Assembly: GCA_000310025.1 (NCBI GenBank) | Contig: FN649728.1 | Coordinates: 1,264,883 to 1,328,882, forward strand | DNA length: 64,000 bases | Reading direction: 5' to 3' | Source of the DNA: Ectocarpus siliculosus | Lineage: Eukaryota > Sar > Phaeophyceae > Ectocarpales > Ectocarpaceae | Shown here: in pieces, positions 343 through 55,659 of the stretch | How positions within the stretch are numbered: the first letter of the stretch is position 1 | Layout: each line of letters starts with the position of its first letter | The notes under the pieces: generated by a model | What the model was told of the DNA's origin: nothing | Seen by the model: the letters and a program-made list of their open reading frames with translations, nothing else | Databases searched by the model: none | Made by a program: the position numbers and the translations under genes

Positions 343-3300
343 CTTCCTTGTTGACCATGGACAGGAGGCTATCCGCCGGGTGCGAGATGATCGCCGCTGC
401 GACACCGGCGATAACGCCCGATGAGAGGGAAACCCCGACCTTGGTGGCGTCGCTCATCTCGCTCGGCTTCTTGCCGATGGCGTTGCCGATCTTTTCTGCT
501 GCGTAACCCTGCCGCCGCCGCCGCGAGAATCATCATCGCCCGTAGTTTTGTTTTTTTTTTAGACGCGGAGGAATTTTTAACCACATGAAGTGGGCGAGGG
601 AGGGAGGGAGGGAGGGAGGGAGGGTGGGTATTAGGAAACGAGCCGCTGCTGTGTGTGCCTGAGTCTCCTTTCATGTATCTTGAGCGTTCGTTCGTGGTGT
701 CGGGAATGCCGTAGGTTACATGACGTACGATACCACACCCCCTGGACCGACTTTCAAAGCTCGAATACTCCACGACGACGAGGATGCCGAAATTGAAGTA
801 AACGGTGCCTGAAAACTCTAGACGAGACGGTTTAAAAGCCGCCATTCTCGGCACCGTCGCTGCGTTTCCTTCCGAGATAACGAGCTTCGAAAACCGTTCC
901 AGGGGGTGTGATGTCTTATGCAACCTACGGTATGTTGCCAGTCTTCGACATACTCCGACCCAGTGTAGATTGTCTAGTGGGAACATTGTTTCCACAAAAA
1001 AAAATAGGCCCGAAGAAGCACGCAACAGACCTGAATGCATTGGCACCGCGGTCTTCTACTGTAGATGTTCTGACTCCAGGGACAACTTTTTCTCCAGCCT
1101 ACTGAGCTTTTCCCTTTGTTACATGGGCTCGTGGAGCAAACCAAAAATCCCAATTTTTTAGGTCCTCTTTGAGACCCCGCATCTTTCACTGGCCAGCCTA
1201 TACGCTTAGTCCATGCCAGTCATGCAACCACCAATGATAGCGTTGACGTTTTTTCTGTCCCCACGTCAGATCGATGACCTGTTTCATCGGCCACCTGTTA
1301 GCTCGGTCCATGCAAAAAAAACACACACACGTAACGAAACAAACGCCCGCAGTTTTCGCCGTGCTCCAAAACCTGGCATCTTTTCATTGGTCGAGCTCGT
1401 TGGCAACTGGTCGAATCCATCCTTGATAAACACATACCCCTCTCCGGGCATCACGCGCTTGCCACACACACACACACACACACATTTTTTTGTTTCTGCC
1501 GCAACGAGACTGACGTATTTTCGTTCGTCAGCTGGTTAGCGCAGTCGATGCCCGAAACAAAAAACAATAGCACTGCTGTTTCAAGCATGTTATGTTTCAA
1601 CCGCACTGACTCGGACGTCTGTTCATTGGTCAGCCGGTTGGCGCTATTGATGCCAAAAATACACGCAAACCACACAAAACACACAAAAACAACACGCACC
1701 TGCACGGCGAACTTGGCCATCGTGTAAGGGATCTGCTTGAACAGGATGGGCGCGAACCCTGAGTAGAAGCCGCGGATGACGCCCTCCTGCCTGAGGATCT
1801 TAGGCACCGCAGACACGAGCCCGTCCGCATAGGTGGGGTCGGACACAAGCCTGATCCGCGTCGCCTCTAGGGGGCACAGAAACACGTCCGCAACGAACTC
1901 GGCCATCGCGGCCGCTCCCAGGTAGATGGGCAGTCGGTACTCCCACGCCTGCGGGAATGAAACCGCGTCGCCCCCGACCGCCGCAGGAGGAACGTTCAGA
2001 CGAGTTCGGTTACCGTTGGCAAGAGACGACGAGCACGGCGTCACCTCTTCCGCTGATGATGAAAAATGCTCCTGGGCAACCATGTTTTACCATTTCGAAC
2101 CGACAAACCGCAACCACGCTGACCCCGCCTTCATGGTCGCCGAGATGTCGACTAGAAAGCATAGTCCTGGAGTGTGTGCGTACTACAGCAAGAGTGAGAG
2201 GGATGACACGTCCCCAAAGCCGACTTTAGTGGCTCGATCGCTCGGTAACGGTCGGAACACGGGCCGATACGCGCCGAAAAACTGTCGACGACATCTGTCC
2301 AAGACCACCGTTTGATCGGCGTTGGAAGCCTCTTGCTTGTGGTTGTGGGGCATTCGAGCCATGAATCACACCTACGGGGTGTGCCATGACTCGCACGCTT
2401 CCGGCATCTTCCGTAGAGAACGTGTCCCACCAACTTGACTTTGTTGCTGGGACTGGGAAGGGCTACATGCCTAACCCGAACTGCTGCCACACATTTTTTC
2501 CAAACAGGGCCTGGCCTGACATGCGCCGGCAAGCCGTTTCAGCCCACGGTGTTGAGAACAGCCAAATAGGGTGCATCGCCGACAATCACCAAGGGCAACA
2601 ACACCAGCAAAAACCACGACAGCAGTCCAGTATCCACAGCAACAGCAACAACAACCACCAACACCAACACCAACACCGACACCAAACCGCGTACGTACCT
2701 TCCGGGTGCCCAGCCGCTCGGTGGCCTTGACCTTGATGATCTCCACACCCCCGAACTTGAAAAAGCCCTGGATGAAGTATCCGACCACGGTGGGCCCGAG
2801 GCCTGTTGCAAGCGCACCGACGCCCTCTTTCTGTTTCGGGAGGTCGTGGAGGGCAAAAAAAAAAAAAACAGATATGGACGATCGATCCACGCAAAGCTTG
2901 AGAATCTGCCGTAAGCATGTACGTGTTCTGGGCAAAGGGTGTACAAGGCTGTCGGGGGACCAGGTATAATGCAGCACGTGCAAGCGGCGCTCGGAGCACA
3001 TGCGACAGCCGACGACGACACCGACATTGCGGGGTGGGATTGGCGCGGGATCGACGTACTCGGCGATGCACAAGCCTTGGACCACCTCGCGAGAAGCCGC
3101 ACCTTCAAAGAAGCCGCCGAAAACACTTCGGCTGCACCGACGATGAGCGGCCACCGTCCAACACAACCCGTGGATCCTACACCACCACACAATATGCTCG
3201 ACTTACCCTACGAAATATTAAGAAACTGACCCTTTCGACACTCCCAGACCGGCTGCAGTGCAGTACACACACCTGGATAACTTGCGAGAAGCTGCCAATC

Positions 3301-3458
3301 ATCCCTCGGTTGTAGGTGACGGGGTCGAGCTGGATGCGGGTCTTGACGACGTCGACGGGGCAGAGGGCGCCGTGGGTGATGCCGCAGCAGATGCCGCCGG
3401 CGAGCCCCCCCTTGAGGAAGTGCACCGCATCGAAGGGACCTTGCGCCTGAGGTGCCAT
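343..3458 (-). CDS. Mitochondrial phosphate carrier (SLC25A3 family), 3' end missing
   Basis: Inner-membrane carrier that imports phosphate into the matrix for ATP synthesis. Exons: 3458-3273, 2830-2699, 1948-1700 and 508-343, giving 62+44+83+55 codons. The first three exons are joined at phase 0 and the fourth ends at phase 1. All three tandem carrier signatures are present: [10 protein letters not shown] near residue 35, PLEATRIRL in exon 3 and [11 protein letters not shown] in exon 4. Stretches such as [14 protein letters not shown] and [13 protein letters not shown] identify the phosphate carrier branch. The start ATG at 3458 has a good context (CAACAATGG). An in-frame ATG at 3494 would add 12 residues. 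The donor after 343 (AAG|GTGGGT) shows that at least one more exon of about 60 residues lies beyond the junk at the window start. Intron 3 is packed with repeats. Confidence 0.93.
709..930. mobile_element. MITE-like inverted-repeat element, copy 1
   Basis: The ends CCGTAGGTTACAT and, reversed, CCGTAGGTTGCAT match. The arms continue through CACACCCCCTGGACCG and TTTCAAAGCTCGA for about 75 bp each side, with a short non-repeated centre. It has no coding capacity. It lies in the third intron of the phosphate carrier gene. Related copies are at 56629-56840, 57041-57120 (half) and 62922-63140. Confidence 0.75.
1264..1320 (+). repeat. CA-tailed short dispersed repeat, diverged copy
   Basis: A degenerate match to the core CATTGGTCAGCCGGTTAGCG...GGTCGATGC, followed by A8 and (CA)n. 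It lies in phosphate carrier intron 3. A further weak fragment (TTTTCATTGGTCGAGC) is near 1380. Confidence 0.45.
1508..1551 (+). repeat. CA-tailed short dispersed repeat
   Basis: Contains CTGACGTATTTTCGTTCGTC and GCTGGTTAGCGCAGTCGATGC, followed by an A-rich tail. It lies in phosphate carrier intron 3, antisense to the gene. Confidence 0.6.
1604..1653 (+). repeat. CA-tailed short dispersed repeat next to a 5' splice site
   Basis: Contains GACGTCTGTTCATTGGTCAG and CCGGTTGGCGCTATTGATGC, then a run of A and CA that ends at the exon 3 donor (1699). In the sense of the transcript the intron therefore begins with a TG/T-rich tail followed by this repeat. Confidence 0.65.
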
Positions 3459-5276
3459 TGTTGTGTACTCTGTCTGCCAGCGCAAGGAGTTCAAGCGAGA
3501 GCGGGGGGGAGGGGAAGGGGCGGCGTAATCGTGTTAGGCGTGCCGTAGCGGTTAGAAAGTTTTCGCGTGCCGTGGCTGTTAGACCGTTGACCGCGCGGTC
3601 CTCGAGAGGGCGGAGCTTTGTTCCCAAAGGAACGCATGGCCAAGCGTTCCTCCGTATGTAGTTCGCCAAAGGTGGCTCCAAAATGTTTCCCTGTCCCACC
3701 CGTATCACTTCCTGCCGTTCTAGACTTCTGCTGGACGGAGAGGGGTAGGGACACGGGGTAGAAGTCGGATTTGCGAATCAGAGAGCACGCCTCAAGTGCT
3801 CTCCAAAAAAAACAGAAAAATAATAAAAATAGTAGTGTAGTCGAAGCGGCATGATTGGGATGATCGGGGCCAAGCACGCCATGGACACTTGCGGACGGAT
3901 TATACACGGTTCAGCTATGCGGGTAAAACCCGTTATTGTTCAAAGACGGCTGTCGTTTGCGTCAAAACCAAGGAGACAAAACGGTCGGTGTCAAAAGGGT
4001 CCAGCTGTGCCGCGGGGGCCGCAGGACTAGCTGTCTGTGTTCATCGATCTTTTCGCGACAGCCCTGTTTGCCAGCCACGACTCCGACCATGGCGCTGGAG
4101 CCATCCATACTTCACCCACAAATCCTTTTCTTGGAAAATTTGGTTCGGGTAGCCGTGGGAAAAGAGCCAACAACTTGGTAACGGGAACACATTTTCGTGG
4201 AAAATTATGGTTAAGGGGACCTTTGCACCATGGTGTCCATCACACGTGACCCCAACACACAGCGAGCTGTCATGCACGGTGCATTCCTCGCCGCGGATTG
4301 GTCAGATGTCAGAATGGCGAGGACGGAGAGCACCATGCTGCATCAGACACAGCTCTTCGTGTCCGATCCGCCACCTCCACTCCCCCTCCTCTCTCCACCA
4401 GAACCGGTTTTCGAGTGTGGCAACCGGAGAACCTACAAATACTTCTTCGCTCCTCTCTCTCTTGGGTCCTCTTGGTAACGCGCGGTGCCTGCCGCCAGCT
4501 CTGCTCGCGTCTCCACACGCTGCACCCTTTGTTTCTTTCTCACCTGGTTCCTAAACGAAGGAGATGACTATACTTCCTGGCACGCTTCTCCGGTCCAACG
4601 AAGCGCTCACTTGTTTTGGGGGGAGCTGGCAGTGGGAGGGGAGGGGGGGGGGGGATATATAACCGAGCCGCGGCGCAATCAGAGAGCGGGACGACAAAGA
4701 CGACATAAAATACAGCAGCATTATATGCTTATAATAGTCGAAAGAAGAACTGAAAATCACGCACGTGCCATCGGGGGGGATGAGGGAGAAAAGATAGACG
4801 CCACTCGCAAGGGGAGCACGTCGCATGTCAGCTATACACACCTTGCGAGACGCAACAGAAAAGGGTGCAGCGGAGCGACACTCATTCATCGTAAAATAGA
4901 GTGCCTTGCTGTGTGCGCCTATGTTTGGGCAAGTCATCTTTAGCCTGCACGGAACAATGGAGGTGCCGTCGACGGCACACGCGGAAGGGATATTTGGATC
5001 ATGAGAAGACACGTCACGTTCACCGATGGGAGTCAGTCGCGAAAATCTCGTGCCCTCGCCGAACCGTCACAGCTCCCAACGACGGTACACGACAAACGGG
5101 TGTGTGCTAATGTAATTAGGTGTGCGGCAGCAGAACCAGATCTGTGGTGCTTTTTTCTCCCCACGCCAGCGGGGCGAGAAGCAGTATATACGGGCTACCT
5201 GGGGGACAGAGCTTACGACAGATTGGATGTCGTGGCTGCTTTCGGTGCCTGGTTCGGATATTAACAGAAAATACTA

Positions 5277-5311
<35 letters not shown>

Positions 5312-6281
5312 GTATACGCGGGGCAACCGCCGGGTCGTTGTCGCAATGTTTATGTATGTGGGGCGGGTAGAGGCGGGTGTACGTAAGCAACGATCGATGT
5401 GTTTCATGGACGAGAGTTGTTCTCAAAAGGTTAGGCATGCACACACACGCCGCCGCACACGCAAAGCTCTCAATTTCGTTCCCGCGAGCAAACGGAGCAG
5501 AATCGTCTTGAAGACTGTTCCTGCTCGGTGGCTCTCCACCTCTGCCTTCACACGATAGACGTATTTGCACGCCTCCAAGGCTGCAGAAGACCATGGTGGG
5601 GGTCTCTTGGGAAACGCTGCCCACCACAGAACTTCGAGAAGTTTGACTACCCGCCGACACACCGAAAAAACAACGCGCGTGTTCGCTGTTTGCAAAGCAC
5701 GTTCACGACGAAAGAACCGGCTGCAAAGTTCATCGTCTTCCCGCGATGTCGGTCGGGAGCACGCGCGGGACTGGAAAGAGCGCTGCATGCCCGCCACATA
5801 GAGGTGCTCTCCCGAGGTAAAAAGTTCTGCGCTGTCCAAACGGCACACAGCACCGCAGGGCATACAAGCTCGCCAGCGCACAAATGGCCAGAACATTCGT
5901 TTACGTTCTGCATTACCGGCACAACGACTGGGGCGGCTACGACGCCGCTGTGCAACGAAATTCATCATCTGGCAACCGCTGCACGCTACCAATTGCAGCC
6001 TTAAGCAGTCTCACCTCGGTGAAATGGCGGCAGTGAAATGGGCTGATGATGTGCAAGAAGAGAGGCCAGAAACGGACGACGCGATGACGCGAAGTTTCTC
6101 TTCGGAGGGGGCGACGGAGACAGAGAAAGAACAAATAGTGGGAGTATTAATGTTTTCGCGGAGCCCCTACGGCGATGTGACCGCAGTTCCGCCGCACATC
6201 ACGCAGGCAGCGGCTGCTACATTGGTGGTGACATTGCTGTGTGCTTTACTGCTCTCGAGTGCTTCGCGAATAGGGATCATC
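3459..6281. other. Gene-free stretch between divergent phosphate carrier and SAP18 genes
   Basis: I see no open frame with family motifs or consistent splice sites. It contains a GATATATAACC TATA-like string near 4652 and a (CTG)n run at 5281-5311. 5' UTRs and promoters of both flanking genes must lie here, but I cannot place them. Confidence 0.5.
5281..5311. repeat. (CTG)n microsatellite
   Basis: Ten perfect CTG triplets in a row, outside any coding exon I can support. Confidence 0.95.
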
Positions 6282-8572
6282 ATGGCCGACGTCAAAATCG
6301 ACAGAACCAAGGTGCGTTAATTTCTACGAATCAAGTTGTTGTACTGCTGTGCCGACCCACACACTGGGCGGGCGATCCGTGATCCTGCCCTTTGCGCTGC
6401 AGCGATCCTTTCCCGCTCCCTCAGCGCGGTTAGCGCGGCCTTGTACAAACTGTGGCCCAAACAAGATCTCCACCCGTCTGTGGACCCCTTGGAGGGCACA
6501 TATTCAACAACATTGTCTTTTGTCCGAACCTGCATGGAAAGCTTTCACTTTCATCGCACCACCGGCAGCAAATGGTGGTGTACAGCCGCAGTACATATGC
6601 AGTACAGACAGACGGGACCTGCTACGTTAGCTGTAACGCCGTCGACGTAAGTAAGAGGATTCGCACTTGCTGTGATGTGTAGGGTACAGGAAGGGGAAGA
6701 AGCACTGCTGTCGACGGTAGCGAGAGGTGAGTCGGGGAGACGTGTGTCGCCGAGCGCTCAGCCCGAGTGTAAGTATGCCCAAGAACCCGCAACATACGGC
6801 TTGTCCCTCTTCAGGGATGTGCCTCGGACAATGCGTGCGGCGTACTGACAGCAGCCGTTCCCGCGCGGTAGCTGCTGTAGGCTTTGTAAATGCCCCGCAT
6901 AAGAAGCTGCAGGCTATCCACCGCGTGGCTGTGGCCGATACCACGGTCCACCCCCATTGTCTGTCAGCGACTTGTCCTCTTGCTGCACACTCTGACTGGA
7001 AGCATCTCGGACACCGATGCTGCAGCAGCGGTATTCCGCAAACCACGCAGTCATGGGTTCATCCAACCAAGAGATGTGAACAAACACAGGTTATCGAATT
7101 CGCGATAGGGACTGATTCCGTATGGCGCGACTACGGCAGGCCGGGCAACCATGAGCGATAGCAGGTGCCCACTTCAACGAATCCACATTTCCGCGTGCCA
7201 ACCGGCAACTCTGTACCATTGAAGCGTCCAACCCGGCTGTTCGGTCCGATCGCGCGTGCGCGTTCCGCGCGGTGAACGCGAAACACAGGTGTGCCCGCTG
7301 CTGCTGCGGTGTTTCTGGACACAGAACCGACACCGGCGAGGGGAGGACTATTCCAACGTCAACAGCCTACCGCGAGACGAGCTGCAGATTTACACCTGGT
7401 ATAGTGTCTCTAACCCTCCTTGACAGTTTAGTACTTGATAGCATTGCCCGAGAGCATCTCTCTCTCGGTGTAGGTACTGTACCGCGGTCGCCTTGGTTGT
7501 CGCTCCCCACCCAAACAGTCTAACCCTGTGCTGGGTATGTGTTAGCGTTGTCACGTCCGCGAGCACGGCACAACCCTCCTTCTCACGACAACGTCGTTCG
7601 CCCCCTTCCCCGCCCGGTCGGCCGCCGCCTAACCCCTAAAGGCCCGATGCAACTGTTCGGGAGATCACGACCTTGATCCAGGGCGTTGTTCCGGCGGCGA
7701 GGCGGCGCCAGGGCCGATTGTCGTACGCCTTCGTCTACCCGGACAGCCAGGGGAAGCAAGTGCTCCGGCAGGTAAAAACAGGGGATTGTTGGGTTGCTTC
7801 GTGCCAGGTAGTGGCCGGTTGCGCTGGGCTTGGTGCCTGCACGCATTCGGTGGTGTGTGGGGTAGAAAGAAGTCGGGCCTGCGTGTGTTTCTTGGACTAC
7901 GGCAGGAGCGTCGACCAATACTGGCCAGTTGAATATCGAATGCGTCAGTTTTGGCGGAAAGAAAACAATACTCTCTAACCCACGGGATCCTCCAAATGGG
8001 GCCCGCGGAGGAGACCCGAAGGAAGGGCCTACCTAAGTCTGTCCCTTACGTTTGTGGAAGATGGGTGTACATGACTGGTAAAGCATCTCTTCGTTTTCCG
8101 TTGTCACCGCTGGTTGTTGTGGGCAATGTAAGGATTAATAAACCAATATCCTTGGTGCAATAATTTAGTACCCTTATCGTCGTAGGCGCAGAGAAGTGTG
8201 GAAACGGGCAGCGCGCGGGGGGGTGCAGCATCTGTAGGGCTGCTTGCCGTATTAGGTCGCAATACCCGCCGGCCTTTTCTCCTTGAGGAATCATCATCAG
8301 TCTACTTCAAACTTTCCGTACGCAACGAACTCCGTGTTACTGTTCGCAGCCTCTCACCGGTTTGTGATCTCGTTAGCGCTGCCTTCGCGTGTTCCATAGC
8401 CCCTCCACCGGTTCTCATTCACCCCCCCCCCCCCCCCTTGGAAATTATCCTGTTGACGTTTCTTGGAAAGGTGGCGAGCGTCTTCTCGGTAACACAAGGT
8501 CAAGACGACAACAAGACGCTACGCGACCTCAAGTTCCAAACGGGAGACTACATGGAGGTTGCGATCGGGTAG
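6282..8572 (+). CDS. SAP18: SAP18-like Sin3/splicing-associated protein
   Basis: SAP18 is a small ubiquitin-fold protein of the Sin3-HDAC co-repressor and of the ASAP/exon junction complex in the nucleus. Exons: 6282-6311, 7289-7398, 7642-7771 and 8471-8572, intron phases 0, 2 and 0, total 123 residues. Family landmarks appear in order: DRTKVCPLLLRCF at the N-terminus, LPRDELQIYTW, DATVREITTLIQGVVPAAR, LSYAFVYPD and the C-terminal FQTGDYMEVAIG. The tiny first exon of ten codons (ATG at 6282) is accepted because its end joins exactly to the conserved CPLLLR block. Length is slightly below the usual 140-170 residues, mostly from a short N-terminus. Confidence 0.93.
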
Positions 8573-12130: not shown

Positions 12131-12341
12131 CTTTAATCACCATTGCAAGGGAAGCACAGGGTTAGGCGCGGAAGGTTTGTTTCCATAGATTAAGGTCAAC
12201 CGGTGAACCACGGGTCGCTTTGTGTCGTCCGATGTCTGCTTCACCATCGACAGCGTACCCTTCCGGAGCTACACGTGCCATCATTTTTTCCTCGTAGTAT
12301 GAGGTTGAATCGTTCCCCGAGGGGTCGAGCATTCTACACAT

Positions 12342-26958: not shown

Positions 26959-29900
26959 GTAGGCGGGATGGAGAAGTACGGCGGTCTGCGGGAAATTTCC
27001 GACAACATTCGTCTTCAGTTGGCGGCACTCCGTTCCCAAGTCGGAGGCGAAGAATCCCAGCTCTCGAAGGAGGTCAACAGCGTTCCGCCGAAACCCCTGG
27101 AGGTATCCATACATGCCAAATGTTTTTTGTTTTGAGCGCACGAATGCTGTTGTTTGCTTTTGCCATGTGTGTGTGGTTTCCACTTTGCGGTTGCGAGGAA
27201 AAGCCGAAAATATGCTATTTTGTTGGGGCTTTCCGGGAAATGATGTGCTCGCGTGCCGTAGCTTGAAAGTTCCGATCCTTGTACGTGGCACGCGCACCCC
27301 ATTTTCCTTTTGCCCCAGGTTGGAGATGTGCGTTTTTTTTCTCGAGGAATGGATTGGGTATCTGCTTCCTCTGGATGATTTCCATTTCCGAAACAAGAAG
27401 ATCCGCTGTGTACCCCCTGATTACACAAACACTCTGCAGTGCCCCCCCCCCCCCCGCGCGCGCGTATGGGGTCCCCAGCAGCGGTACCGCTGTTGCCCTG
27501 AGGGTGCCCCCGGCGTCAGAGTTGCTACCAATAGGAGCGCTAGATGTTGCTGTCTAGGTCCTTGAAGCGGAGAGAATACGACAAACAAACGTGTCATCAA
27601 CAAACAACGATCCGCTGCAGGTGTTCGAGTACGGCCCTTCGCGACAGGCCTGGATGCGCGACCCCGAGAAGTACAAGTACCAGGTGCGAGGGGGGGGGGG
27701 GGGAGGAGTTGAGGTAGAAGGTCAAGCACCAGGTGCGAGAGAGGGAGGGAGTTGAGACAAGTACAGGTGCGAGGGAGAGAGGCAGGGAGGTACATATTCC
27801 CACCAAGCTTGCCTTCTCTTGAGATTTGTTATGTAAACAAGACGCGGTTTTTGCGAGATCAGTCCATCGCTCGTGATCTACCGCTGCCGGCTTTTTTGCT
27901 TTCGAGAGGACAACGACAACTATCGCAGCACCAGTTTTTATGACGAGAACCTAGACATCCATTTTGAAACGGTTTCTCACGACGCCCAACACCGTCGGAA
28001 GCTTCGGATTTCCAGAACATTGCTGACGTGTTTGTGGTTCTTTACTTTGCATCGACCGGCCTTAACCAATGAAAAGACGTCAGCCTAATAGGCGGAGAAA
28101 ACACGCCCTAGTCATAGGGTTGGGGGACGCAGGGAGTGGATGGCGGTGTCCAACACAAGTCGACAAACCCCGCTCCTTCTTTATTAGGAAATTTACATCC
28201 AATCAAAGAAGTACTACCCTTTCGAGATAATACCACAGCACTGGAAGGGGATGTGTTGGAGTCCGTGCAGTGAATGAAAAGAGAGAACAGCCTGGATGCT
28301 GGGCTTATTTAGAGTCTGTTTAAGCTTAATACGCTGAATTTTCATCAGTGATGATGTTCACAAAAGCACTGCACAGGTATAAATGTTCGAGAGATTACTC
28401 TTTGATCTTGGCGGGATCCTCCTGCGGCATACTGATTTCGGTGACAGTGCACTGTAGTCTCGATGTTCCGGTTGGGTTTTCGACCTCACCTCATATCCAT
28501 GTGGATTTGATATGTAGTCCCTACAACAATGTTCGGGAGCCGCCAAAGGTCGTAGAATGAATGCGCCGGAAGGCCGCGTGAGCTGCACTCACTGACGTGA
28601 GATCCACACAAGAATGCTGTGCGTTTGGACCACGCCCTTTCCACAAAATTTCGGATTTCGACATGTCCCAATGGACCCGAGATGCAAGCTACCAGAACCT
28701 TAAGCACTGGTACTAAACATGGGCGTGCAGAGCAGGAACCGATCTTCCAGAACCGGCTGACCGATGAACAATGTGTGTGTGCTACTTACGAAGCATCGAC
28801 CGGTTCACCAAATACCCGTGTGTGTGTGTGTGTGTGTGTGTGCTTCTTTGGTGCAATAGCATCGACCGCGCTAACGAATGCTTTGTTTTTTTTTTCCCGG
28901 TTCTTTTCGAACAGTTTGTGTGCGTGGTGGCAACCAGGGCCACCGTGGAGGAGGGGATCTGGCACAAGCGACGGGCGCCCAGGATGTGGTCCAGGCAGCC
29001 GCCGTTCCACGTGCGCATCGTAAGGCCGAACCCGGTGGGGATGCTGGGTCACATGCTGGGGACGGGAAAGATCAAGTTCGTCCAGAAGGTGCGTCTTGAC
29101 CTTCTGAAGCACCTACTCCGTACATGCTGAACTTCCGCGTGTGTGTGTGTTTTTTGGGATGTTCTTTGTTGTTCTGTTCCTCAGGTTTCGAGGAAACGTT
29201 GCTCGGTGTGTGTGTGTGTATGTGTGTTTGTGTGAAGCAGGACGTGACGAGTTATCCACCGGTGTAACTCATGTTGGGCCTCGTTTTTTTTTGTGTGTGT
29301 GTGTATTTGTGCGAAGCAGGACGTGGCAATTTATCCACCGGTGTGGATCATGTTGGGCCGCGTTTTTTTTTGTTGTATGTGTGTATTTGTGCGAAGCAGG
29401 ACGTGGCGATTGATCCACTGGGGTAACTCATGTGGGGCCGCGTTTTTTTTTTTGTATGTTTGTATTTGTGTGAAGCAGGACGTGACCATGCGGAAGACGG
29501 ACAAGAGAACCGGCCGCTCCATCGAGATAACCCAGCCCATGACCGTCTTGAAGCGCATGGATGTAAGTCGCGATGGATTCTTGGCAGACGCCCGTGGTTC
29601 TTCGAATAAGTTGTACGTCGAATCGCTGGCGCAATCCCCTCTATGTTAAAAAGCTTCTTGAAAGAGCACGGAGACAAAAATGGCACGTGCCGACATGTGA
29701 CTCGGCACAGCGGTGGTTGTGGAAGCATGAGAGCGTGGCAATGCTGTGTGTTTTCTTTTTGAAATCGTCGTCAGATAAGAGACACCATGTGTCGAGACAA
29801 GAGACCTCATTGCCCGCGGTGAGTACAAATGCTATGCATAGCCGCATATGCATGCCCATTTCCTACCGTCCATGTTTTACATCGAACCTGTGCGTGCGAA

Positions 29901-30531: not shown

Positions 30532-31232
30532 CAAAGAGGCAGAGAAACGGATAGAGAGAGTGGAGAGACAGAAATAGTTTGCTTCCCCGTCGGCCAAGGG
30601 AGCTGAGCACCATTCTACCGTTCTTGCTGGACCAGGGTCCACCTAGGTGCCATGACGGAGGAGCCTGGGGCGAAAGAGCGGGGGGGGGGGGGGAGGAGAA
30701 TAATCGTGACCTAATTGATCGGCCGGTGTAGCGAACTCACAACACAGAACGGGTCTGGAGACAAGAAACGTCAAAATCGGGTTTTGAGACTCAGTTTCTC
30801 ATTTCGTCGCCCCACTGTGGAGCACAGGTTGTCATATAGAGTTTAGAGTAGGACCCACTGCTGTGCTATAATTCGTAGACCTATTTTCGTGAAAATGTGG
30901 GCCTCTGTTTCGATACATTTCTTTACCTGCGGGCCCGTTCGGTTTATGCATTCCACCGCAGGTGAAGGAGACGGGAGTTTTGGACCTCCTGAGGCAGGCC
31001 GACATCAACACCCCGGAGGAGGTGGACGATGTCACCAAGATGGTCGACTCGCAAACCGGAAAGGTGGGTCGCCCGTGCTTCGTCCGTCGTCGTGGTGGCG
31101 CTTTTTTTTTCGTGTGTGTGTGTGTGTGTGTGTTTTTTTTTTTTTTTGTGCATCGACCGCGCTAACCGGCTGACCAATGAAAACACGTCAGTGCTAGCGG
31201 GTAAAATCAAGGTCCCTAGACGGGGGCCAAAA

Positions 31233-31263
<31 letters not shown>

Positions 31264-34800: not shown

Positions 34801-34923
34801 AACACTTGTAAGTAACAAATCCAAAATAGCGCCATACAACCCCCCCCCCCCCACAGAGAGACCGCAACACACACGTCGGTTCCAGATCATGCGGCCTTTA
34901 GCAGCATTGTGTGTTCTCAACCG

Positions 34924-34974
34924 CACTGAGACTGGCGTCTTTTCATTGGTCAGTCGGTTAGCGCCGTCGATGAT
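34924..34974 (+). repeat. CA-tailed short dispersed repeat
   Basis: GCGTCTTTTCATTGGTCAGT and CGGTTAGCGCCGTCGATG, followed by an A-rich/CA tail. Confidence 0.7.
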
Positions 34975-35123
34975 CATAATAAAAAAACACATACACATAA
35001 AAACAAAACACAACGAGCCATCCACACCGCACGGCTTTGATGCGGCGACGGTTTGACACCGCGCGCCCGGCGAGAATAAAAATGTGGTACGTAGACTACA
35101 CACCTGCTGGTTGCTAATCTGAC

Positions 35124-35126: not shown

Positions 35127-35155
<29 letters not shown>

Positions 35156-35931: not shown

Positions 35932-35975
<44 letters not shown>

Positions 35976-41673: not shown

Positions 41674-41764
41674 CTTCGCCTTCATCAGCAGGCATGTCTC
41701 CTTGGAGCTGGCGCATCCGCGAGAGTATCCCGCCGTCGGCCTTGCCTTGGCCGGCCTTGCACAT
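41674..41764 (-). CDS. Candidate first exon (30 codons), possibly of the F-box/SPRY gene
   Basis: ATG at 41764 gives MCKAGQGKADGG then ILSRMRQLQGDMPADEGE, ending GAAG|GTGAGG at phase 1. The F-box exon begins at 39296 after TTTCTTTTGAGTAG with two bases left over, which fits phase 1 and keeps the frame into SPENIYSKASEQQ. Adding it makes a 756-residue protein. The start lies 570 bp from the divergent PIH1 gene start. This assignment rests on phase and codon look only. Confidence 0.35.
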
Positions 41765-45300: not shown

Positions 45301-48300
45301 TTACTTTCAAGCGTTGATGAAACCCACTTGTCAAGGCCTCTGCTGCCGATGGCTTTTTCATCCGGTGTGAATTGTCTACGTGCAGTGCAAGAAAGTGCGT
45401 TGTCGTTGCCTCCACAGATCTTCTCCTTGAAATAATCAACTTCAACAACATATCGGGCTGTTCGGCCCTTGGGGCGGTACCTGAACGCTGGACTCCGAAC
45501 AAACAGGTCGTCGCACTTGCGGCAGGCTGGATAACCAAGGAACACCCCGGCTTGGTGGTCTCCCAGCGGCGGAAGCTACTCAAGGTGACACCGACCGCCA
45601 CAAATGATCAACTTGATGTGTCTTGTGTTTCGCTTGGGGTTTTTCGTCATCCCAATCTTTTTCATGTTTGCTCACGGGTAGCGGCCTTGGTCCAGCTCAC
45701 CTTCTTCGTTCCGACTGACATTATCATTGACCCGAGATCATGCACGCTGCCATACCCCTTCGCAGCCGAGATCCAGCCGTGGCCACTATTCTGCACTAAA
45801 ACCCTGGACTATACTCGGACAGGCTGACGTACGTTCTTGAATCAGCAAGCATGTAGTGCACCTGCCTTTTCAGCCACGGCCGGAAACAAGGACTTGGCGG
45901 GCTTAAAGTAGTGTAGTCGACCTAGGCCATCCATAGAACGAAATGAAAGCATTTCTCTCTTCTAGTTCGATGATGAACCGACCAAACCATCGCGAAAATG
46001 TACAACAACCCCAACTAAACAAACCATTCAACGAAAATAAAAAAAACAGCTCTGCACCTACAAGGGCGGGGACGGAGCCAAAGGGGGAACGCCTGTCCCG
46101 TTTCCCGCGGGCGATGCCTCCTCACAAGCCGATCCCCTGGAAGAACGGACGCGCGGGAGTGGCGGTGGACCAGCTGCCGGAGTTGGCGGCAGCAGCGGCG
46201 CAGGCGGCGGTGGGCTCCTCGATGACCCGAAGTCCCTCCTGGCGGCCATCAGGAGCTCCGAGCCCGATGGCGAGTCAGGGGTTGGCGGAAATGGCGACAG
46301 CAAAGAAGGAAAACAGGAGGTGGCGACAGCGTCAACCGTTGACGGGGGCCCGACAGGACGAGGAGAGGGAGATGGAATACCGGGGGCACTCGGCCTCAAC
46401 GCCCACGGCGGCTACAGGAAAGGAGGCGGAAACAGGAACGCCTCGGCCACGCGCGACATCTTACTCCCCGGAGCGCTCGCGGGACTAGCGTCCGATAGCG
46501 GCGACAGAAAAAGGACAGAAAACGGCCTGAATGAGGGTCGCCGCGGCCCTCTAATTTCCGAAATCGTACCCGACACCTCGACGACGACAGCACGTGCTGG
46601 TGATGGAGGAGAGGCACTGCGCCAGGTTAGTGATGATTCCAGGGCAGTCGATGGATGTCAGGGTCAGGAGCCGGGTGTGGAGCGGAAGGTTGGCAAAAAA
46701 TCGGCGCCCGTAGTAAAGAAGGGTTTCCTGTCGTCTTTCAAGGTAGGGGGGAAGGCGGGGCTGGAGAGGGCGCCGCTTTACCCGCCCGGTGGGTCCGAGA
46801 ACGGAGCCGAGCCGTCGGCCTACGCGAAGCTCATGAGCCGCTGCAAGGTGGTGGACACCAGAGACCACAGCAAAGAGGAGGTGTGTGTGACAACATGGCG
46901 AACGCGTTGACATGGCAAACGCGTTGCGTCCTACAGCTGAGAATCTCGCAGTCGGCCGAAGTGCAGTCTTCTGTCGTTCTAAAGCAGTGGTTATACGTTG
47001 CCCTCAGAAGACCCAAGCGCAAACCGTGGTACGGTATTTCATGCTCGAGCTGTTGCTTCCAAGTACGTTGACTAGAAGGTCGTGCGCACTTAGATATACA
47101 ACCTCGACGGGTATCAAGGAGAGCAATGATGGCAGTACGCCTTCCGACTCCCGTTGCCCGTGGTGGACGTTCGGAGGGAACAGCTCTGCCACCCTTCATG
47201 TAGTTCTCGTGATAACCTGCGGACTTTCTAGGCTTGCGATAACCGTGCCTGTTCTCTGTCGCCGCCCACATCCTCCCTGGACAGATGGACGCGGCGATGA
47301 AGGCCCACGCTGGCGGTGGTGCACCGCTTCGGCCTGCTTCGCAGACCCCCGAACCGAAGCCTTCCCCTACACCTACCGCCGGGCGCGCCGGACGCAAGCC
47401 GGCGGCATCTGCGGCCGTGAAGAAGGGGTTTCTCGGAGCGGGCGTTGGCCGTGGTAGGATCAAGGGCGAGGAGGGGGGAGGGAGGGGTGATGCACGCGGT
47501 CGATCAAGCAAGGTGGATCGTGAATACGAGCGTCTCGTGGCGCTCGCCGATCCCGAGATGGGCGACGGCACAGGTGGCAAGGTAGGTTGAACCGAACCGC
47601 GGCATCAAGCGTCACTATTACATAGTATCTCCAGGCAAGAGCACGGCGCTTATTTTTACAATAAGTGGGCAGACCGAGCATTAGCAATAAGTCGAACACC
47701 ATGCCAGATGATTTTTTTTCACTTTTAAGGCCGTCACCCTTGCCGTTGTTCTTCCTCGTATTTGGTAGCCTTCACACGGCGGAGAAGAAGACCCCATGAC
47801 GGAGCAGCTCGCACAGCTAGCCAAGATCCTCGGGCCCGCGGCACCTCTGCCAGAAACGCCCTTCGGCCCTGGATGCGCTACTGCTTCCTCCTCCTCTTCG
47901 TCAACTCGGCCGTCAACATCGGTGGCCGTACCAAAGGCGTCCAACCTGGCGGCAGACGCCACCGGGGATACGTTACCGCCCTCCCGCAGCGCTAAGCGGT
48001 CAGAGGGAGGGGCTGACGGCGGCGCCGATGGTTCTTGTGCAGCGCGAAACAAGCTTCCTACGTCAGCCCCCAATCAGGGTTCAGAGGAGGGGCGTCAAGC
48101 AATACTCGCAAGGGAAGCGGTAGCACCGGTGACGACGGCACCTACGACGGAGATGGAGGGGCAACCACCCCTACCGGCACCAGCCCCCACAAATACAGTT
48201 TCCCCGGCCGGTGTCGAGGATGCCGAGGGCTCCCGCTCGTGCCGCCACACCCAACCGCTCTCGCCTGCTGTCTCTGCCGCTGCACTAAAGGAACGCGAGC

Positions 48301-48683
48301 CGGTATACCGGATCGAAGAGCTAGTTTCACGTACGTCGGAAGACGCACGTTCAGGGTCAGACAATGGCGGTGGAGGGCGCAAAGCGAAGCGGGCCTTCCA
48401 GGTAACCATCGACCTGCCGGAGATGAAGGAGTCCGCGGGAACGAAACAGGGAAAACAGGCGGGGGGAACTACAAGCACCCGGAGCAGCGGAACGGCGGGA
48501 AAGAGGACGGGACCGTCCTTGTCGGATGTAGAGCTTGATGTTTCGCCGGCCTTCCTCCAGCTAAATGTCCCGGGGAAGTACCAGCTCCGGCTGGAGATGC
48601 CGTGCGTTGTGGATGAAGACAGCGTGACCGCCAAGTTTAGCAAGTCGCAGGCGGTGTTGAAGGTTTCGATCAGAGAAAAGTAA
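42334..48683 (+). CDS. PIH1 domain protein (HSP90/R2TP-type co-chaperone)
   Basis: PIH1 proteins link HSP90 and R2TP to client assembly. Several act in cytoplasmic pre-assembly of axonemal dyneins. Exons: 42334-42498, 42961-43050, 44317-44520, 44944-45126, 45507-45584, 46050-46880, 47285-47581 and 47769-48683; all seven introns phase 0, 920 residues. N-terminal PIH1 region: MWKMLDDLAVTDSAAY, FTPIPGFVVKASL, KVFINLCEHEGVSPP, LRIPMFVSR, AVDVVFHPWVLR, VVALAAGWITKEHPGL, TYKGG. The C-terminus is a CS-like fold: FQVTIDLPEM, SDVELDVSPAFLQLNVPGKY, MPCVVDEDSVTAKFSK, LKVSIREK. The long middle is disordered and has two KKGFL motifs. The third intron is GC-AG (CAG|GCAAGA). The first exon (MNSALFHSARPG) is less certain. 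It could be a PIH1D1/2, MOT48 or kintoun relative. Confidence 0.87.
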
Positions 48684-50539
48684 CATTTGGCTTCCTTTCG
48701 GCACGTTGCCTCCAGCGTGAAAGTGTAGCTAGGTTTCGCGGCGTGCAATCATGGTTTGGGTGAGGAGGGAAACGAGGGAAGGGCAGCAGCAGCACGATTC
48801 TTAATGGAAGAAGGAGTTTTTTCCATCGAACGGGTGGTCCTGTGAAATGATATGAGGGTTTTCGTCTATGAGATCGATGCAAAATGGAACGTGTCACTCA
48901 CTGCGACTTCAAGTAAATATTTCATCACCGAGTGACACGCCTTACAGTATCATTTCGGACTGCGTGGACGTGATAAGGATACTTCGCATTCGATAGCTGC
49001 CACAGAGTGCACGCAAGCGAGGTTGTTGCACATGGTTGGGCCGACCCGCAAGCATGCTAGGGTTGCAGTAATATACGTTTCCTACGGAGATAAATAGGTC
49101 AGGTAGCGTACTCTTGGGAGAAACCGGTTTCTCTTTTTCGTTGACGCGCGCGTCATCCGACACCATGTTGCAACAAATCGACCAATCACGCCTCAGTATC
49201 CGCAAGAACTATCAACTACGGAAACAATCCCGGAAGGAAAATAAACCTCGAAAAAGCATGCTATGTTTATGGGTGGACGGGCTGCTGCGTGGTCCGGCCA
49301 GGTTTGACACCAACCCGCACCTGTGCCTGACATCGCGCTCAACCCAAGAAGGAGCGAAAGTGCGGGAAAAGTACTCGAGTAGTGCCCACATTGTGCACAA
49401 ATCTACGGAGTCGTCTACAGCCCGAACAAGTGCGTGTCTCGTGTCGTTTACTCGCAATAGCGTCGCGCGTGTTTCATCCTTGAGTTGATACGGAATGGCA
49501 CGGTAACTCCCGTCGTACTGTAGCTGGCCACCGACCGAGAAGACAGAGGAAAGGGACGTGGAAGGTGGCACTGCCTACACCACGAAACCTCCTATTCTTG
49601 CACGATGGAGGGAACATGGTGGTGGTGGTATTATGATTGGGTGTACATGACAGAGTCACTCACTCAGGCTGGGTGGTGAGCCTCGCGGCCGTGGCTTTTT
49701 CGGTGTTTTGCTCGACCTACAAGTGGCATCGTTTACTAAATATAAATCTTGATATGTTCATGCGTCGCCGCCTGACAATAGCACGTGCAAGACATGTCGG
49801 ACAAAGCGATATAGCACAAAATAAATAAGCACACAGACCCCACCGTTCCCACTCGACATACGAGACCAAGAAATAAATCATGCGTACAAAACCAAAATCA
49901 CGCGTATCGAGAATCACCTCGCGATGCTTGACATTCTAATATTTCTCCCCGCCTATGCAAAGGTCGGACATGTTTGCAAAGATCAAGGCACGGGTGATAC
50001 GAATTCTGCATTTTGCCAACAAGCCATCAAAGACAATGCACCCCTCATATCCGTACTATGCCGAAATATTCCATGCCTTGTTTTGGCCGGCCAGGCTCTA
50101 CCCCCGCTGCATGCTGGTACATGGCGAGTCTTGCAGCCATGCTTAAAAATATTAGGAACACCGGAAAAAGAAAACAGACACTTCCAGCAGTATTCACATC
50201 TGGTAATGGCTGCAATGGAAGAGACGGGATTAAACGACAACAATTAGGCCAAATGCTTTGGCACGAATTCGTCAGGAAGACGTTCAAGCCCGCGAGCCTC
50301 GAACAAAAGATCGACTTGAAGGGGGGTGGGCTTAAATCTGCACCGATCACTCCTCCTCCATGTATAGACCTGACCCTGGCCTAACTGGGGTAAGACACAT
50401 GCCCCCACCACGCTACCTAGTGCTAATCTGAGCGCGACCACCCCGAAGAAACGAGGAACTTCCGCTTCCAGAGGCGGTTTTATCCTACATTGGTCGCAAG
50501 GTTGGGCGCTTTGACCTCCGCCAGCGCCTGCGGCGCTTT
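48684..50539. other. Convergent intergenic stretch
   Basis: It lies between the 3' ends of the PIH1 gene and the membrane/coiled-coil gene. I see no gene or repeat family here. Confidence 0.5.
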
Positions 50540-53500
50540 TTACCATGCTGGGCTTCTCGCTAGAAAATCTTCCATGTCGCTAGCCGCCGTGTCGCTGGGC
50601 TCAGCTCTGGGGTCAAGTCTTGGGGAACGCTTGTTCTCGTACACGGACGCTAAGCTTGCCGCTAGCTTCGCTTCCTCAGACTCATACACCTCACCGTCGC
50701 TGTAAGCGCTGTTCCGATCGTTCCCAATGTTTTCGTCGAAATTGTCCGGCTTTCGGTGGTAGCAAGTTTTGCACCCGCCGTTCTCGATGACTTGGGTCAA
50801 CGCTGCGGCAGGGGCGGCGTGAGGGTGTTGCGAGAAGCATGTACAATCAAGCACCGAGGAAGATCTTGAGAAGCTTCGTTACCACCAAAATTGTTTAGGT
50901 CAGCAAACGTTGGACAGGGAAATACATTTCACTCAACACTCAGCGCTTGATACGGGCCTCACCAATAAACAATTGCTACGACAAGGGCCTTCCTTCACGC
51001 GTGTTCTACTCACCACCCACGGGCTTCCCGGCGTCAAGCAGAGCTTGGATGAGGTCTGCCTTGTTGTTGCACAAGGATATGTCCACTTCCGCGGCGTTTG
51101 ACGTGCGACAGAGCTCGTCGAGGGGCTTAGCCTGAAGGAGAGCCCTCCATGCCGCCCCTCCCACTTCCGGGAAACGGTCGAGCAGGGAGGGTTGCGAGCA
51201 ACACAGCTCGCCGAAGGCTTCTACAAGGCCAGGGTCCAGTCCGCCGAGGACAAGGCCCTCTGGTGGGAGCAGGCAGATTGAAGAGGAGAGCTCCAGCAGG
51301 TAGCACACGACGTTGCTCCAGGTGGGTGTGTGCGCCGCGGCGTGGTCGGCCCAGAAATGTTTCAACGAGTTCGTGATGTTCAGGAAATCGGAGTCGAAAA
51401 CGTACTGCTTGGCCGTGGCCGGAGGCTTTAGCTGTAGGGTACAAAAGGAAAACATACGGCGGGGGTTGTGATGCAGCGCACCTCCAAAGAAATGGTATGC
51501 AGGGCTTTGGAACGAAATCTTTATGATCCCGGCGACCGAAACTTGGTTGCAGGAAGTAATTCCTAGGATGGAGCCCGGAAATACCATTCATTACTATCCC
51601 AACCTGGATAGACTACATAATTATTTGGCAATGTGCAGTCGACCCACCGAGACTCAACCACGTACCTGGGCATGTTTTCTGTAACTGGTTGCTACCATGA
51701 TGATCCCGGCCATTTTATGGGCATCCAGGGTTTCCAGATGAGGCCTTAGCCTAAGTACCTTGCAGCAACAGGTGTGCGCCTTGTCAAGGAGTCCAAGGTC
51801 TTCCCCTCCGGTACCTGTAAACTGGTTGAGGTACATCCCGGCCTCGCTCAACGAATTCTGGAGTTTTGATAGCTGCCGTTTTCAGGGGAACGAAAGGCGG
51901 GTTGGGTTTCGCGGCGGAGGGAAAACGGCGCACGAAGTATGTAGCGTGGAGTCTCAGGGGCATGAAGTGTTTTTCATCCTTTAGAATACAGCCATTCATC
52001 AACGCGGAAGTACTTGGCCGTCACATCCTTTTTCTGTTCCCGCACCGCGACGGTGGTTTCCCAGGCTATCAGTCCCGACTTCAAAGGTCGTAAGTTGCTC
52101 TACAGTCACGTCAACGCGTAGATACTTTGCACTCACTTCCTTTTGCTGTTCCCGCATCACGTAGGTCGCTTCCAAGGCGATCAGCCCCGACTTGACGTCG
52201 TTCAGTCTCGACGACACGTCCTGGAAATAAAGAGAGTTTTCTTCTCGAGCCTGGTCCATGGACAATTGGAGCTCGCCCATAACGCACCGCAAGTCTTGCA
52301 GGGACCTGTAAATCACTGCCGTCCCCTGGCGCAAAGTGTGGTTCACCTCCAGTAACCCGGTCACGACTTCGTTCCGCACTCCCTCCACGTTCTCGATAAC
52401 GGTGTCTAGATCCGTATGCACGGCAGCCACACCTTTGATCAGCTGCATAAAAGAGTACACGCGTAGGAAGGAGCCGATCAAAGCGACAGGGTGGAGAGGG
52501 AAAAGTTGACGTCAACATTAAGGAGGGGAATAGGCAAGCATCCGAAATTTTCCTTACCGCTTACTTTTCATACCCTTTGATAATGTTCAAACCACCACAC
52601 TGTACCGCTACTGGCAAGGGGAACGAGCGAAAACTGCACCCCATCATCTGCAATCCGCCTGAAACGAACACCAAGAGCTGTTCAGTCTCCGAGAAAACGA
52701 TATGTTGGCAGGGTGCACAGCAACAGTAATGCCCACGAGCAAGAGAGCACACTCCATGAATGATCTCGTCTTTACAACTTCGAGGGATGTGTCTATGTAG
52801 GATGTGAATGTTTCACGAGCAACGTGGCAAAGAAAGGCGATTCGCCCCATCGCAATCTTACTCGCAATGATGGGTTCTCTCCACTCTGTCCTGTGTCCGA
52901 GGGTAGCAAATCGCTATGTATTTTGAGCCTCTACATTTTTTTGATTCCGTTTCCTGGACTCTCCTCTCGAGGTCCGGATGATTGTGTGCTTAATCGCCAA
53001 GGTGAGACGCTTCGATTGAATGTGGATAGCGGTATCATCGTGACCACGAAAAATCGTTGCGTTTGCGTTCGAGGTAGCTTGACCGACGGTGAACTTCTTC
53101 GTACGCTGCTCACAGTGTAGACTCTTCGGCGGTCACACCTCGTCCACCCATTCCTACCACCTCACCCATTCTTACCACCTCGCGGGACAACACTGCAGAA
53201 TGTCCGGCCTCCTCACCTGATCTGTGCCGTAACGAAAGTCATTGCCAACGCCCACAAGTTCGTCCGCTACGGCTTGGATGGCCGATTGTTGGCTCGCAGC
53301 AGTTTCCGACAGATCACGAAAGTCGCCCCGCACGTCCAAAAACCCTTCCGCTAGGGCCTGACTGGTCCGCCCTTGTCTGGCGACCAGCTCCGAAAGACCG
53401 AGCTGCATCTGATGTTTTGTAGTAGCGAGATACACATATGAAGGGCGATTGTGGTGCTGCGAAGTGGACACACGGTAGTAGGGTGTTGCGTACGGTAAGG

Positions 53501-54154
53501 TCTGAAGTACGGTGGCTTGCACGGTCTGAACTACGTGGTTTCGTTGGATTCAAGCCACAACAAAGAAAACAAAGGGAACCAGCAACTATTGCACTACTTC
53601 TCACAAGCACAATATAAGAGATAGGCTCTCGGCAAAAATACCCCTTGGCCGTCGGCATTGTTGGAAAGGACCACAATTCGGCGGCTTTCGTCCCCGACCT
53701 CCATGGATCGATTCCAACGTAGACTACCCTTCACGTATATGCGAGCGGTTTCGGAGCAAGAGTGGAGCTGAGAGAGAGCGAGAGCTTGGGCGTGGGAGAT
53801 GAAGAGGAAGGCTCGAACTGACCGACAGCGTTATTGAGCTTTTCTTACCTGACGTCGGTGTGTGGCGAACTCTGGTGACAAGCCGGTAATGGCCCGCTGG
53901 CGCAGCGTTCTTGACCCGAAAAACTTTCTTTGCGCCTTCATGGCCAGTTCCGTCCCAACCGCCATGATCGCGCCTTCCACGGTGTCGCATTCGGGACCGA
54001 ACTCGACGTTTATCTCCACGCTGGTGTCGCCTGCGCCCGGTTTATTGTAATCTTCTGTCTCCCGCCGGCGGCGAGCAGAATACCGATTCGCTACCCACCG
54101 CCCGGCCAAGAACAATGTCGACGCCAGCTGAATGCATAGGTAGGCTTCAGCCAT
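50540..54154 (-). CDS. Orphan membrane-anchored coiled-coil protein
   Basis: Exons: 54154-53849, 53408-53217, 52442-52137, 51872-51666, 51431-51014 and 50802-50540; phases 0, 0, 0, 0 and 1 agree, total 563 residues. The N-terminus MAEAYLCIQLASTLFLAGRW looks like a short signal anchor followed by a basic SARRRRE stop-transfer. Exons 2 and 3 are heptad-like (LVARQGRTSQALAEGFLDV; TVIENVEGVRNEVVTGLLEV), predicting a parallel helical bundle. Exon 5 is helical and globular (NVVCYLLELSSSICLLPPEG). The tail has a CKTCYHRK pair of cysteines and ends acidic. I do not recognise the family. An in-frame 54-bp candidate exon (52078-52025) duplicates the end of exon 3. Confidence 0.75.
52010..52205 (-). repeat. 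Tandem duplication (112-bp period) covering the end of exon 3
   Basis: CTGTTCCCGCA recurs at 52034 and 52146 with matching flanks on both sides. On the gene strand the exon end SGLIALEATYVMREQQKE is echoed by SGLIAWETTVAVREQKKD, each followed by a GTGA donor-like base string. Confidence 0.85.
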
Positions 54155-54929
54155 GACTACTCGGGTGCCCTAAGACAAACGGCAACGGCACGGGATAGAG
54201 AGGCAACACTAGTTTTAGCCGCCCAATGCCTGAACTTGCACCGGTGCGTGGTGCACGAAAGAAACGCGTGCTGTGAAAAGGAAAAGGCGGTTCAGGCTGA
54301 CGTCTTGCTGCAGCAGTTCTGTTACGGTAGTCTTACGCACGTGGGTTCACACAACCAAACTCCCCACAAAGAAAGACGTTCGATCTCGGTTCGACTTCAG
54401 GACCAGGTACGAACCCAGAGTACACATCCGGCAACGTTACTAGTGTACGCGAGTACTAGTACGTGAAGTGGAGCGGTAAATGCCATATTCGTATTGTAGG
54501 GGATTCGAGGCGTACCAGAATACCCGACAGGTTCATAGAGCGGCGACCCCCGACGCATACCCCGCCCCCCCCCCTGCATCTCCTGTCTGCTCGCCTTATC
54601 AATTTTTTTTATCGGTGGGTGGGGCCCGCCGAATGCTCGTGATATGACTTCTTTGTGTTTGTGAAAATAGTGTTTCTATTTCGCGTGTATGTTGTTGACA
54701 TCTATTCTGGCACCAGTCTAGATACAGTAGTGGGCCCTCTATAGTGCCGGTTGAATAGTGCCGGTGCCCGGTATAGTGCCGGTTAAATTTCTGGACACAG
54801 ACAGCGCCCTCAACAGTGCCGGTCCGGCACTATTGAGGGATGGCCCGTTATAGTGCCGGTTGGGCGCCGCTGTGCCCCCCAATAGTGCCGGTTCACTACC
54901 TGCTGTAGACACACACACACACTACCGGT

Positions 54930-55003
54930 CGCCCCGGTGGTCTAGTTGGTAGTATCCACGTTAACCTTCTAAGTTTCAGGTCATGGGTCCGAGCCCCGGC
55001 GAT
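54930..55003 (+). ncRNA. tRNA-like Pol III sequence (pseudo-tRNA or SINE head)
   Basis: TGGTCTAGTTGG (54938-54949) fits the A-box consensus TRGYNNARNNGG exactly. GGTCCGAGCCC (54986-54996) fits the B box with one change. The spacing matches a tRNA and a T-rich stop (TTTGTTTTTTTTT) follows. The acceptor stem does not pair and the anticodon stem around CTTCTAA has two mismatches, so this is not an intact tRNA. A weaker similar start is at about 55190. Confidence 0.6.
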
Positions 55004-55577
55004 TTGTTTTTTTTTCTTACTTTCGTTCCTGAAAGAATTGGAAGCAATTTCTCCTGAATTCGTTAGTAAATGATGCCTTGGTGCATCAACTTCACCGTTG
55101 ACGAGGGTGGGAGTACTGAACCCTCTCGCGATAAAAACAATCATAGGCATGTACCGCAGAAGGGGGTCCAGCCCCCCCCTCCTGTGTGACCCCGGTTGGG
55201 TCGTCTAGCTAGTCGTAGTGGAGGATGTGGGCCAGTGGGGCAGACGACAGAAACAATAATGGGAGAACGAAACAAACACACACATGTGTGGAGCTATGGC
55301 ATACTTTGTTTGAGTCATCTAGCTGCTGACACGATGACTGTTGGATCTTGGGAGTGTACGATTATCAAATTGGGAGATGCAGCATACCACGATATCCTGG
55401 TTTCGGCTGGGCTTGAATTAACCCTTTTGCTGTCCTCCGCTCTTTGCATCAGTGGCTTCCTAGGTTCGGGCGAGGGCATTTGTGTAGCTGAGATGTATGT
55501 CTACATGAAATATATATAATATGTAGAGAGAGTCGTATTAGCATTCGCATTTAGCGCATTGCGCATTTTTGGAATTT

Positions 55578-55659
55578 TGGCCCCCTTCCAGGGACCTTGA
55601 TTTGTACCCGCTGGCACTGACGTCTTTTCATTGGTCAGCCGGTTAGCGCGGTCGATGCT
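55578..55659 (+). repeat. CA-tailed short dispersed repeat, nearly complete
   Basis: CAGGGACCTTGATTTGTACC, CACTGACGTCTTTTCATTGG, CAGCCGGTTAGCGCGGTCGA then AATAATAAAAACACACACAC. It is the best copy for a consensus and is nested inside the transposon. Confidence 0.8.

Follow-up and report, generated by a model that had tools for sequence, protein, structure and literature searches.

A short repeat ending in a (CA)n tail recurs in a 64,000-nucleotide (nt) stretch of the brown alga Ectocarpus siliculosus (GenBank assembly GCA_000310025.1, contig FN649728.1, positions 1,264,883 to 1,328,882 of the forward strand), referred to here as the window, and some of its copies lie next to 5′ splice sites. 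The repeats are probably, for the greater part, dead-on-arrival, 5′-truncated copies of a long interspersed nuclear element (LINE), whose association with splice donors would be a by-product of targeting to TG tracts. The donor link is most simply read as TG-rich intron starts serving as landing sites, and the creation of introns by the repeat is not supported by the present data.

With a profile of the ~60-nt core and a threshold of E<1e-3, nine copies were found in the window (core matches at 55615+, 31193-, 34930+, 1508+, 1614+, 28084-, 57173+, 28875- and 1282+); profiles of two 5′ variants, A and B, were searched alongside. In the reversed window, used as a control, the best E value was 2 for the core, 4.2 for the A profile and 1.4 for the B profile. 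In the 189-Mb genome, a 33-nt core had 1,550 matches with at most 3 mismatches, 758 on the plus and 792 on the minus strand, and the reversed 33-nt pattern had none in the same genome at the same tolerance. The nine window copies, the genome-wide matches and the empty reversed controls hence establish as real the family of about nine short CA-tailed copies that a preliminary description of the window had put forward. Of the blocks which that description took to be shared, ACTGACGTCTTTTCATTGGTCAGCCGGTTAGCGCGGTCGATGCTAATAAT followed by an A-rich stretch and (CA)n is common to all copies, but GGGACCTTGATTT is exact only in the window copies at 55591 and 31204. Further properties were determined on a sample of 80 copies, namely 80 of the 100 exact 33-mer matches listed, in contig order C1-C12.

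The 3′ end of the repeat (core, A-rich stretch and (CA)n) is kept, while the 5′ ends vary: among 110 copies, their distance to the core ranges from ~0 to 651 nt, many of the values being capped at 140 nt by the length of the 533-nt stretches read. A tail was detected by rule in 76 of the 80 sampled copies, and the median divergence from the consensus was 14% outside the search word among the 51 sampled copies that were aligned, which also served for the hairpin prediction given below. The longest copies of the B type run on into an open reading frame, the coding sequence of a LINE. The C-terminal part of this frame has 144 match rows genome-wide; for 5 of the 100 core places listed, matching by hand placed it upstream at a distance of 0.6-0.8 kb, in the same orientation as the core. 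A single copy, L091, unites a reverse transcriptase stretch, the C-terminal part, the 3′ untranslated region, the core (at 6342-6402) and the tail. Its reverse transcriptase stretch, broken by one TGA and one TAG, is 84% identical to that of L069, where the domain RVT_1 is recognised (6.5e-10), and its DNA is 80% identical to L070 over 2,851 bp and 84% identical to L071 over 1,383 bp. The family combines two attributes of a LINE, a reverse transcriptase (RVT_1 in L069 and the matching broken stretch in L091) and a fixed 3′ end with variable 5′ truncation and an A-rich or simple-repeat tail. In addition, the LINE protein contains a conserved C-terminal stretch (MDLVI...DVTIVNP) that matches nothing in Pfam or NCBIfam and that may resemble the restriction-like endonuclease (RLE) of the CRE, R2, NeSL and HERO elements. 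A DDE_1 transposase fragment (2.1e-17) was also observed on the 3′ side of the reverse transcriptase-bearing copy L069 (L069:245-655, minus strand).

The A and B types have their last ~65 nt in common, consisting of ACTGACGTC...CAGCCGGTTAGCGCGGTCGATGCTAATAAT, the A-rich stretch and (CA)n. A conserved hairpin, CTGAC...GTCAG inside CCGC...GCGG, is predicted in the 3′ end, with a value of -8.4 against -1.3 (standard deviation 1.3) in 50 column shuffles. The A type, a minority variant marked by GGGACCTTGATTT and found in the window at 55527 and 31136, has a head of ~200 nt in which no open reading frame was traced, and only its last ~65 nt are shared with the LINE. Non-autonomous elements that depend on a LINE usually show this pattern, which would suit an independent short interspersed nuclear element (SINE), perhaps partly derived from a tRNA and mobilised by the LINE. 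Such an origin is nevertheless distinctly improbable for the family, since 75 of the 80 sampled copies are of the B type, that is LINE 3′ ends, with 1 of the A type and 4 unclear. A tRNA origin of the 3′ module, based on a likeness to the D-arm and anticodon loop of tRNA-Ile, was rejected: in the one copy scanned (A type) Rfam gave no tRNA match at E<=10, and local alignment of the core with 19 host tRNA genes, no tRNA-Ile among them, was not significant after 38 tests. The preliminary classification as an introner-like element or as a mini-SINE or short A-tailed retroposon thus came close with the retroposon, but the copies are mostly a 5′-truncated LINE and not a separate mini-SINE.

The flanks of the copies are informative on where the repeat inserts. 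The 24 nt preceding the 5′ end were CA-rich (CA fraction of at least 0.5) in 36 of 76 copies, whereas this held for 1 of 30 control windows taken at a greater distance upstream, and in the 80-copy sample a CA-rich 5′ junction was found in 23 of 46 copies, against 0.3% of 6,000 window 24-mers. This enrichment points to (CA)n/(TG)n tracts as the sites into which the repeat seems to insert, although no empty site was seen. Target duplications are modest, with at least 6 nt common to both junctions in 11 of 75 copies against a null mean of 6%, and they are blurred because the flanks are CA-rich; L146 and L062 are convincing single cases. At L041-L045 (C3:6774979-6775393), three copies and a partial fourth form a tandem array with CA tails as joints, which adjoins a NUDIX exon.

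At splice donors (AG/GT, where the slash marks the exon-intron border), copies were found antisense with the tail towards the exon. In the window, the phosphate-carrier exon suggested earlier is real, and its donor at 1699/1700 directly follows an antisense tail. Elsewhere, exons recognised by Pfam as EF-G domain IV (L110, 4.4e-19), WSC (L159, 5.4e-7), Solute_trans_a (L163, 2e-22) and thioredoxin (L188, 1.7e-8) end in AG/GT beside an antisense tail, and a NUDIX exon (L041, 7.5e-5) ends in AG/GT 17 nt from one. In the Pfam scan of ten sequences that gave all of these exons except thioredoxin, five were without a match (L017, L067, L043, L054 and the reading frame preceding window donor 31063). 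That donor (31063/31064, GGAAAG/GTGGGTC), in a putative plus-strand gene, is preceded by a frame open over 57 codons and lies 41 nt from a tail end. Two further placements beside donors did not hold. The TG run adjoining the fragment at 28854-28875 is not, by eye, preceded by AG/GT, and the copy at 55578, described as adjoining a gene fragment, lies inside a ~1.8-kb DNA transposon with terminal inverted repeats (TIRs), at 54722-56533 of the window, so that its neighbourhood is uninformative on splice sites.

The bias was also apparent when the motif AGGTRNG was counted up to 60 nt from the end of the tail: antisense matches occurred in 11 of 75 copies and in 13 of 59, sense matches in none of the 75 or the 59. 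A far window, taken as a control, gave 3 of 75 and 3 of 59 antisense, and 2 of 75 and 3 of 59 sense. This excess is partly inherent, since the antisense strand of a CA tail itself contains GTGTG; AGGTRNG near tails was hence dropped as proof of a donor by itself, and open frames and Pfam were used as further evidence. Part of the antisense bias is real, since Pfam-recognised exons end beside antisense tails, and the proposal that the repeat is biased in both position and orientation at donors is borne out. Sense tails at acceptors (CACAG/) gave no clear signal: 16 of 75 end in AG, with frames open over at least 90 codons in 6 of these 16 and in 15 of the other 59. Locus L097, a candidate for a duplicated AG/GT site and intron gain, was dropped, its 5′ flank resembling that of the repeat copy L035, and was kept in all counts.

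If the repeat were an introner, an antisense copy inserted into an exon would create a new intron, and an antisense tail does supply GTGTGT right after an exon-final AG. However, the next phosphate-carrier exon, identified by eye (GYAAEKIG...SHPADSLLS, window ~338-508, minus strand, without a Pfam match of its own), gives an intron of roughly 1.2 kb with three copies inside, so that in this one intron tested no single copy spans it. TG-run AG/GT sites also occur without the repeat. Furthermore, none of the copies seen spans an intron from donor to acceptor or has an acceptor at its head, acceptors not having been searched systematically. Since copies continue into LINE sequence coding for reverse transcriptase and no donor-to-acceptor copy was seen, the introner reading of the preliminary description is unsupported, and we consider it highly improbable.

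A different account would be that the LINE machinery targets 5′ splice sites (AG/GTG) directly, through base pairing between the terminal CAC of the tail and the donor GTG, and that TG tracts at donors are partly old tails. We regard this as unlikely, and as improbable its extension, in which the LINE finds donors through CAC-GTG pairing and antisense tails rebuild donors as TG tracts and occasionally supply the donor in use. If direct targeting held, TG-tract introns would partly be a fossil record of LINE insertions. Tails abutting Pfam-recognised exons exactly, as in the phosphate carrier, EF-G IV, WSC, Solute_trans_a and thioredoxin, are consistent with it. An antisense AG/GTNNG stands at the tail end in 10 of 76 scorable tails, against 1/16 expected (p=0.02), and frames open over at least 95 codons precede 6 of these 10 (L132 over a stretch of N) but only 11 of the 66 others (p=0.007). 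Conversely, those 66 of the 76 sampled tails do not end at AG/GTNNG, and some donor-near copies sit within the intron rather than at its border, as at L041 and at window 31063.

The TG runs of the window and loci were rejected as a donor control, numbering only 23, of which 2 had AG/GTNNG, and because this set was too small, genome-wide pattern counts were used in its place. Of 142 rows of core tails with ACACAC, 54 continue as CT (antisense AG/GT) and 88 as C[ACG], the latter representing 83 different copies, 7 of these in the TIR transposon. The CT share of tails is thus 38%, or 39-41% after collapsing repeated rows and transposon-borne copies, and all (AC)7 runs of the genome give 36% (CT in 252 of 706, C[ACG] in 454). 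The tails do not differ significantly from the (AC)7 runs in CT share (p=0.63; 0.44 and 0.24 after collapsing), which argues against direct targeting of donors. CA runs are followed by CT in 252 cases against 454 and preceded by TC in 48 against 256; the far higher frequency of CT after than of TC before, although it can be counted in favour of direct targeting, implies that the excess of AG/GTGTGT is directional and general. CT hence follows CA runs five times oftener than TC precedes them (252 vs 48), many TG runs beginning after AG, and introns with TG tracts may be common in the Ectocarpus genome.

The repeat was present at 7 of 20 sampled (AC)7CT places and at 2 of 20 (AC)7C[ACG] places (p=0.13). 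In a length-matched comparison restricted to (AC)7 or longer, CT followed 14 of 27 tails and 238 of 679 other runs (odds ratio 2.0, p=0.10). Both differences lie in the direction expected of direct targeting. However, 13 of the 20 sampled (AC)7CT places were without the repeat, which means that AG/GT sites with a TG tract exist independently of it.

Several observations weigh against truncated LINE copies being brought to donors by TG tracts. The length-matched count leaves room for a moderate donor preference of the repeat, and the (AC)7 comparison set itself contains tails, at 7 of the 20 CT and 2 of the 20 C[ACG] places. By the CA-fraction measure, 40 of 76 5′ junctions are not CA-rich, and in some cases (L041, L045, L052, L054 and L132) the CA tract on the 5′ side is the tail of an earlier copy. 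The target duplications are weak, the highest of 200 shuffles reaching 12% for junction sharing. On the side of the LINE, no open reading frame was traced for the A-type heads, which 2 of the 9 copies in the window carry, the reverse transcriptase-bearing copies L069 and L070 are without a core at their 3′ side, and no endonuclease domain was recognised in Pfam and NCBIfam scans of the LINE protein. Finally, the 80-copy sample, being drawn from exact 33-mer matches, favours well-kept copies.

In the mechanism proposed for insertion into TG tracts, the LINE protein would recognise the predicted 3′ hairpin of its RNA, the (CA)n end of the RNA would pair with a nicked (TG)n strand, and this pairing would prime target-primed reverse transcription. 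Given that the tail has to match the CA strand, a copy inserted in a GTGTGT intron start would be forced into the antisense orientation, tail at the donor. The association with splice sites would then be a side effect of TG-tract targeting, without a splice-related function. This suggests a simple rule for the link between repeat and splice site, namely that a TG-preferring, CA-tailed LINE lies antisense wherever introns begin with GTGTGT. It is also a warning that position alone is insufficient for calling such repeats introners, and the system may provide a natural test of how 5′ splice sites and long introns are moulded by the targeting of retroposons.

The coordinates of the copies and of the associated features are collected in Table 1. 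The ends of the TIR transposon, CAGTAGTGGGCCC.../...GGGCCCACTACTG with TA on both sides, resemble those of pogo/Tc1-mariner elements. The transposon aligns to seven other loci in pieces that are 87-98% identical, six of them over most of the length and L007 in pieces. At L017, L018 and L033, the sequence upstream of the A copy is shared with the TIR transposon and that downstream is not, as if the 3′ module had mobilised a transcript that read through the transposon and stopped at the tail. Direct and inverted copies of a second dispersed repeat, CCGATTTTCAAAGCTCGATT...CACCCCCTGG..., occur at 717-932, 56629-57137 and 62957-63142 of the window, and three tandem units of ~80 bp, rich in T and TG runs, lie at 29215-29489.

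Table 1. Copies of the CA-tailed repeat and associated features in the window.
Feature	Coordinates	Strand	Evidence
A-type copy, embedded in TIR DNA transposon	55527..55672	+	A profile E=7e-50, core E=3e-23
A-type copy, antisense to a putative gene on the plus strand; 41 nt between tail end and donor 31063/31064	31136..31236	-	A profile E=5e-33
B-type copy (LINE 3′ end)	34878..34988	+	B profile E=1.5e-30
B-type copy and CA-rich tail, ends at phosphate-carrier donor (gene on minus strand)	1575..1699	+	B profile 1575-1663 E=1.6e-18; tail read from sequence
B-type copy, same phosphate-carrier intron as the 1575..1699 copy	1483..1564	+	B profile E=5e-17
Diverged copy, same phosphate-carrier intron	1245..1326	+	core E=8.6e-5, B profile E=1.4e-4
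Diverged copy	28036..28105	-	B profile E=2.7e-8
Short core fragment beside (TG)n run at 28818-28842	28854..28875	-	core E=4.6e-5
Short core fragment with tail	57173..57210	+	core E=4.3e-5
Weak tenth copy, A type	62490..62544	+	A profile E=2.9e-4, core E=0.011
Open frame with phosphate-carrier exon, donor CAG/GTGCGTG abuts antisense tail	1700..2086	-	Mito_carr 2.8e-14
TIR DNA transposon (~1.8 kb) carrying the 55527-55672 copy	54722..56533		28-nt inverted ends, TA on both sides; from L001:663-2474

No literature on introners in brown algae was found, and searches by title or abstract start for non-long terminal repeat retrotransposons with splice donors, microsatellites or brown algae gave nothing bearing on the subject; subscription papers were outside the reach of these searches, so that novelty does not follow. 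Introners (PMC9860276) share with the present repeat a link to splice sites, but here no intron-spanning copy was seen and related copies carry a reverse transcriptase gene. In Ectocarpus itself, a survey of transposable elements reports LINEs of the LINE/CRE and RTE-X groups, abundant and frequently 5′-truncated, with two CRE families accounting for 4,821 copies and 0.42% of the genome, as well as LINE-dependent non-autonomous elements and many copies in introns (PMC12477816). The present LINE resembles LINE/CRE and RTE-X in being abundant and often 5′-truncated. Some families of HERO-clade LINEs are microsatellite-specific (PMC4640811), and the Ectocarpus element would resemble them in its probable microsatellite target. 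LINEs specific for (TG)n are already known, since the same source describes the Togen LINEs of fish as NeSL-related and specific for (TG)n microsatellites (PMC4640811). Togen and the Ectocarpus LINE are alike in being associated with (TG)n/(CA)n tracts, and differ in that in Ectocarpus CA-rich 5′ junctions are limited to about half of the copies and some of the tracts lie at the starts of introns.

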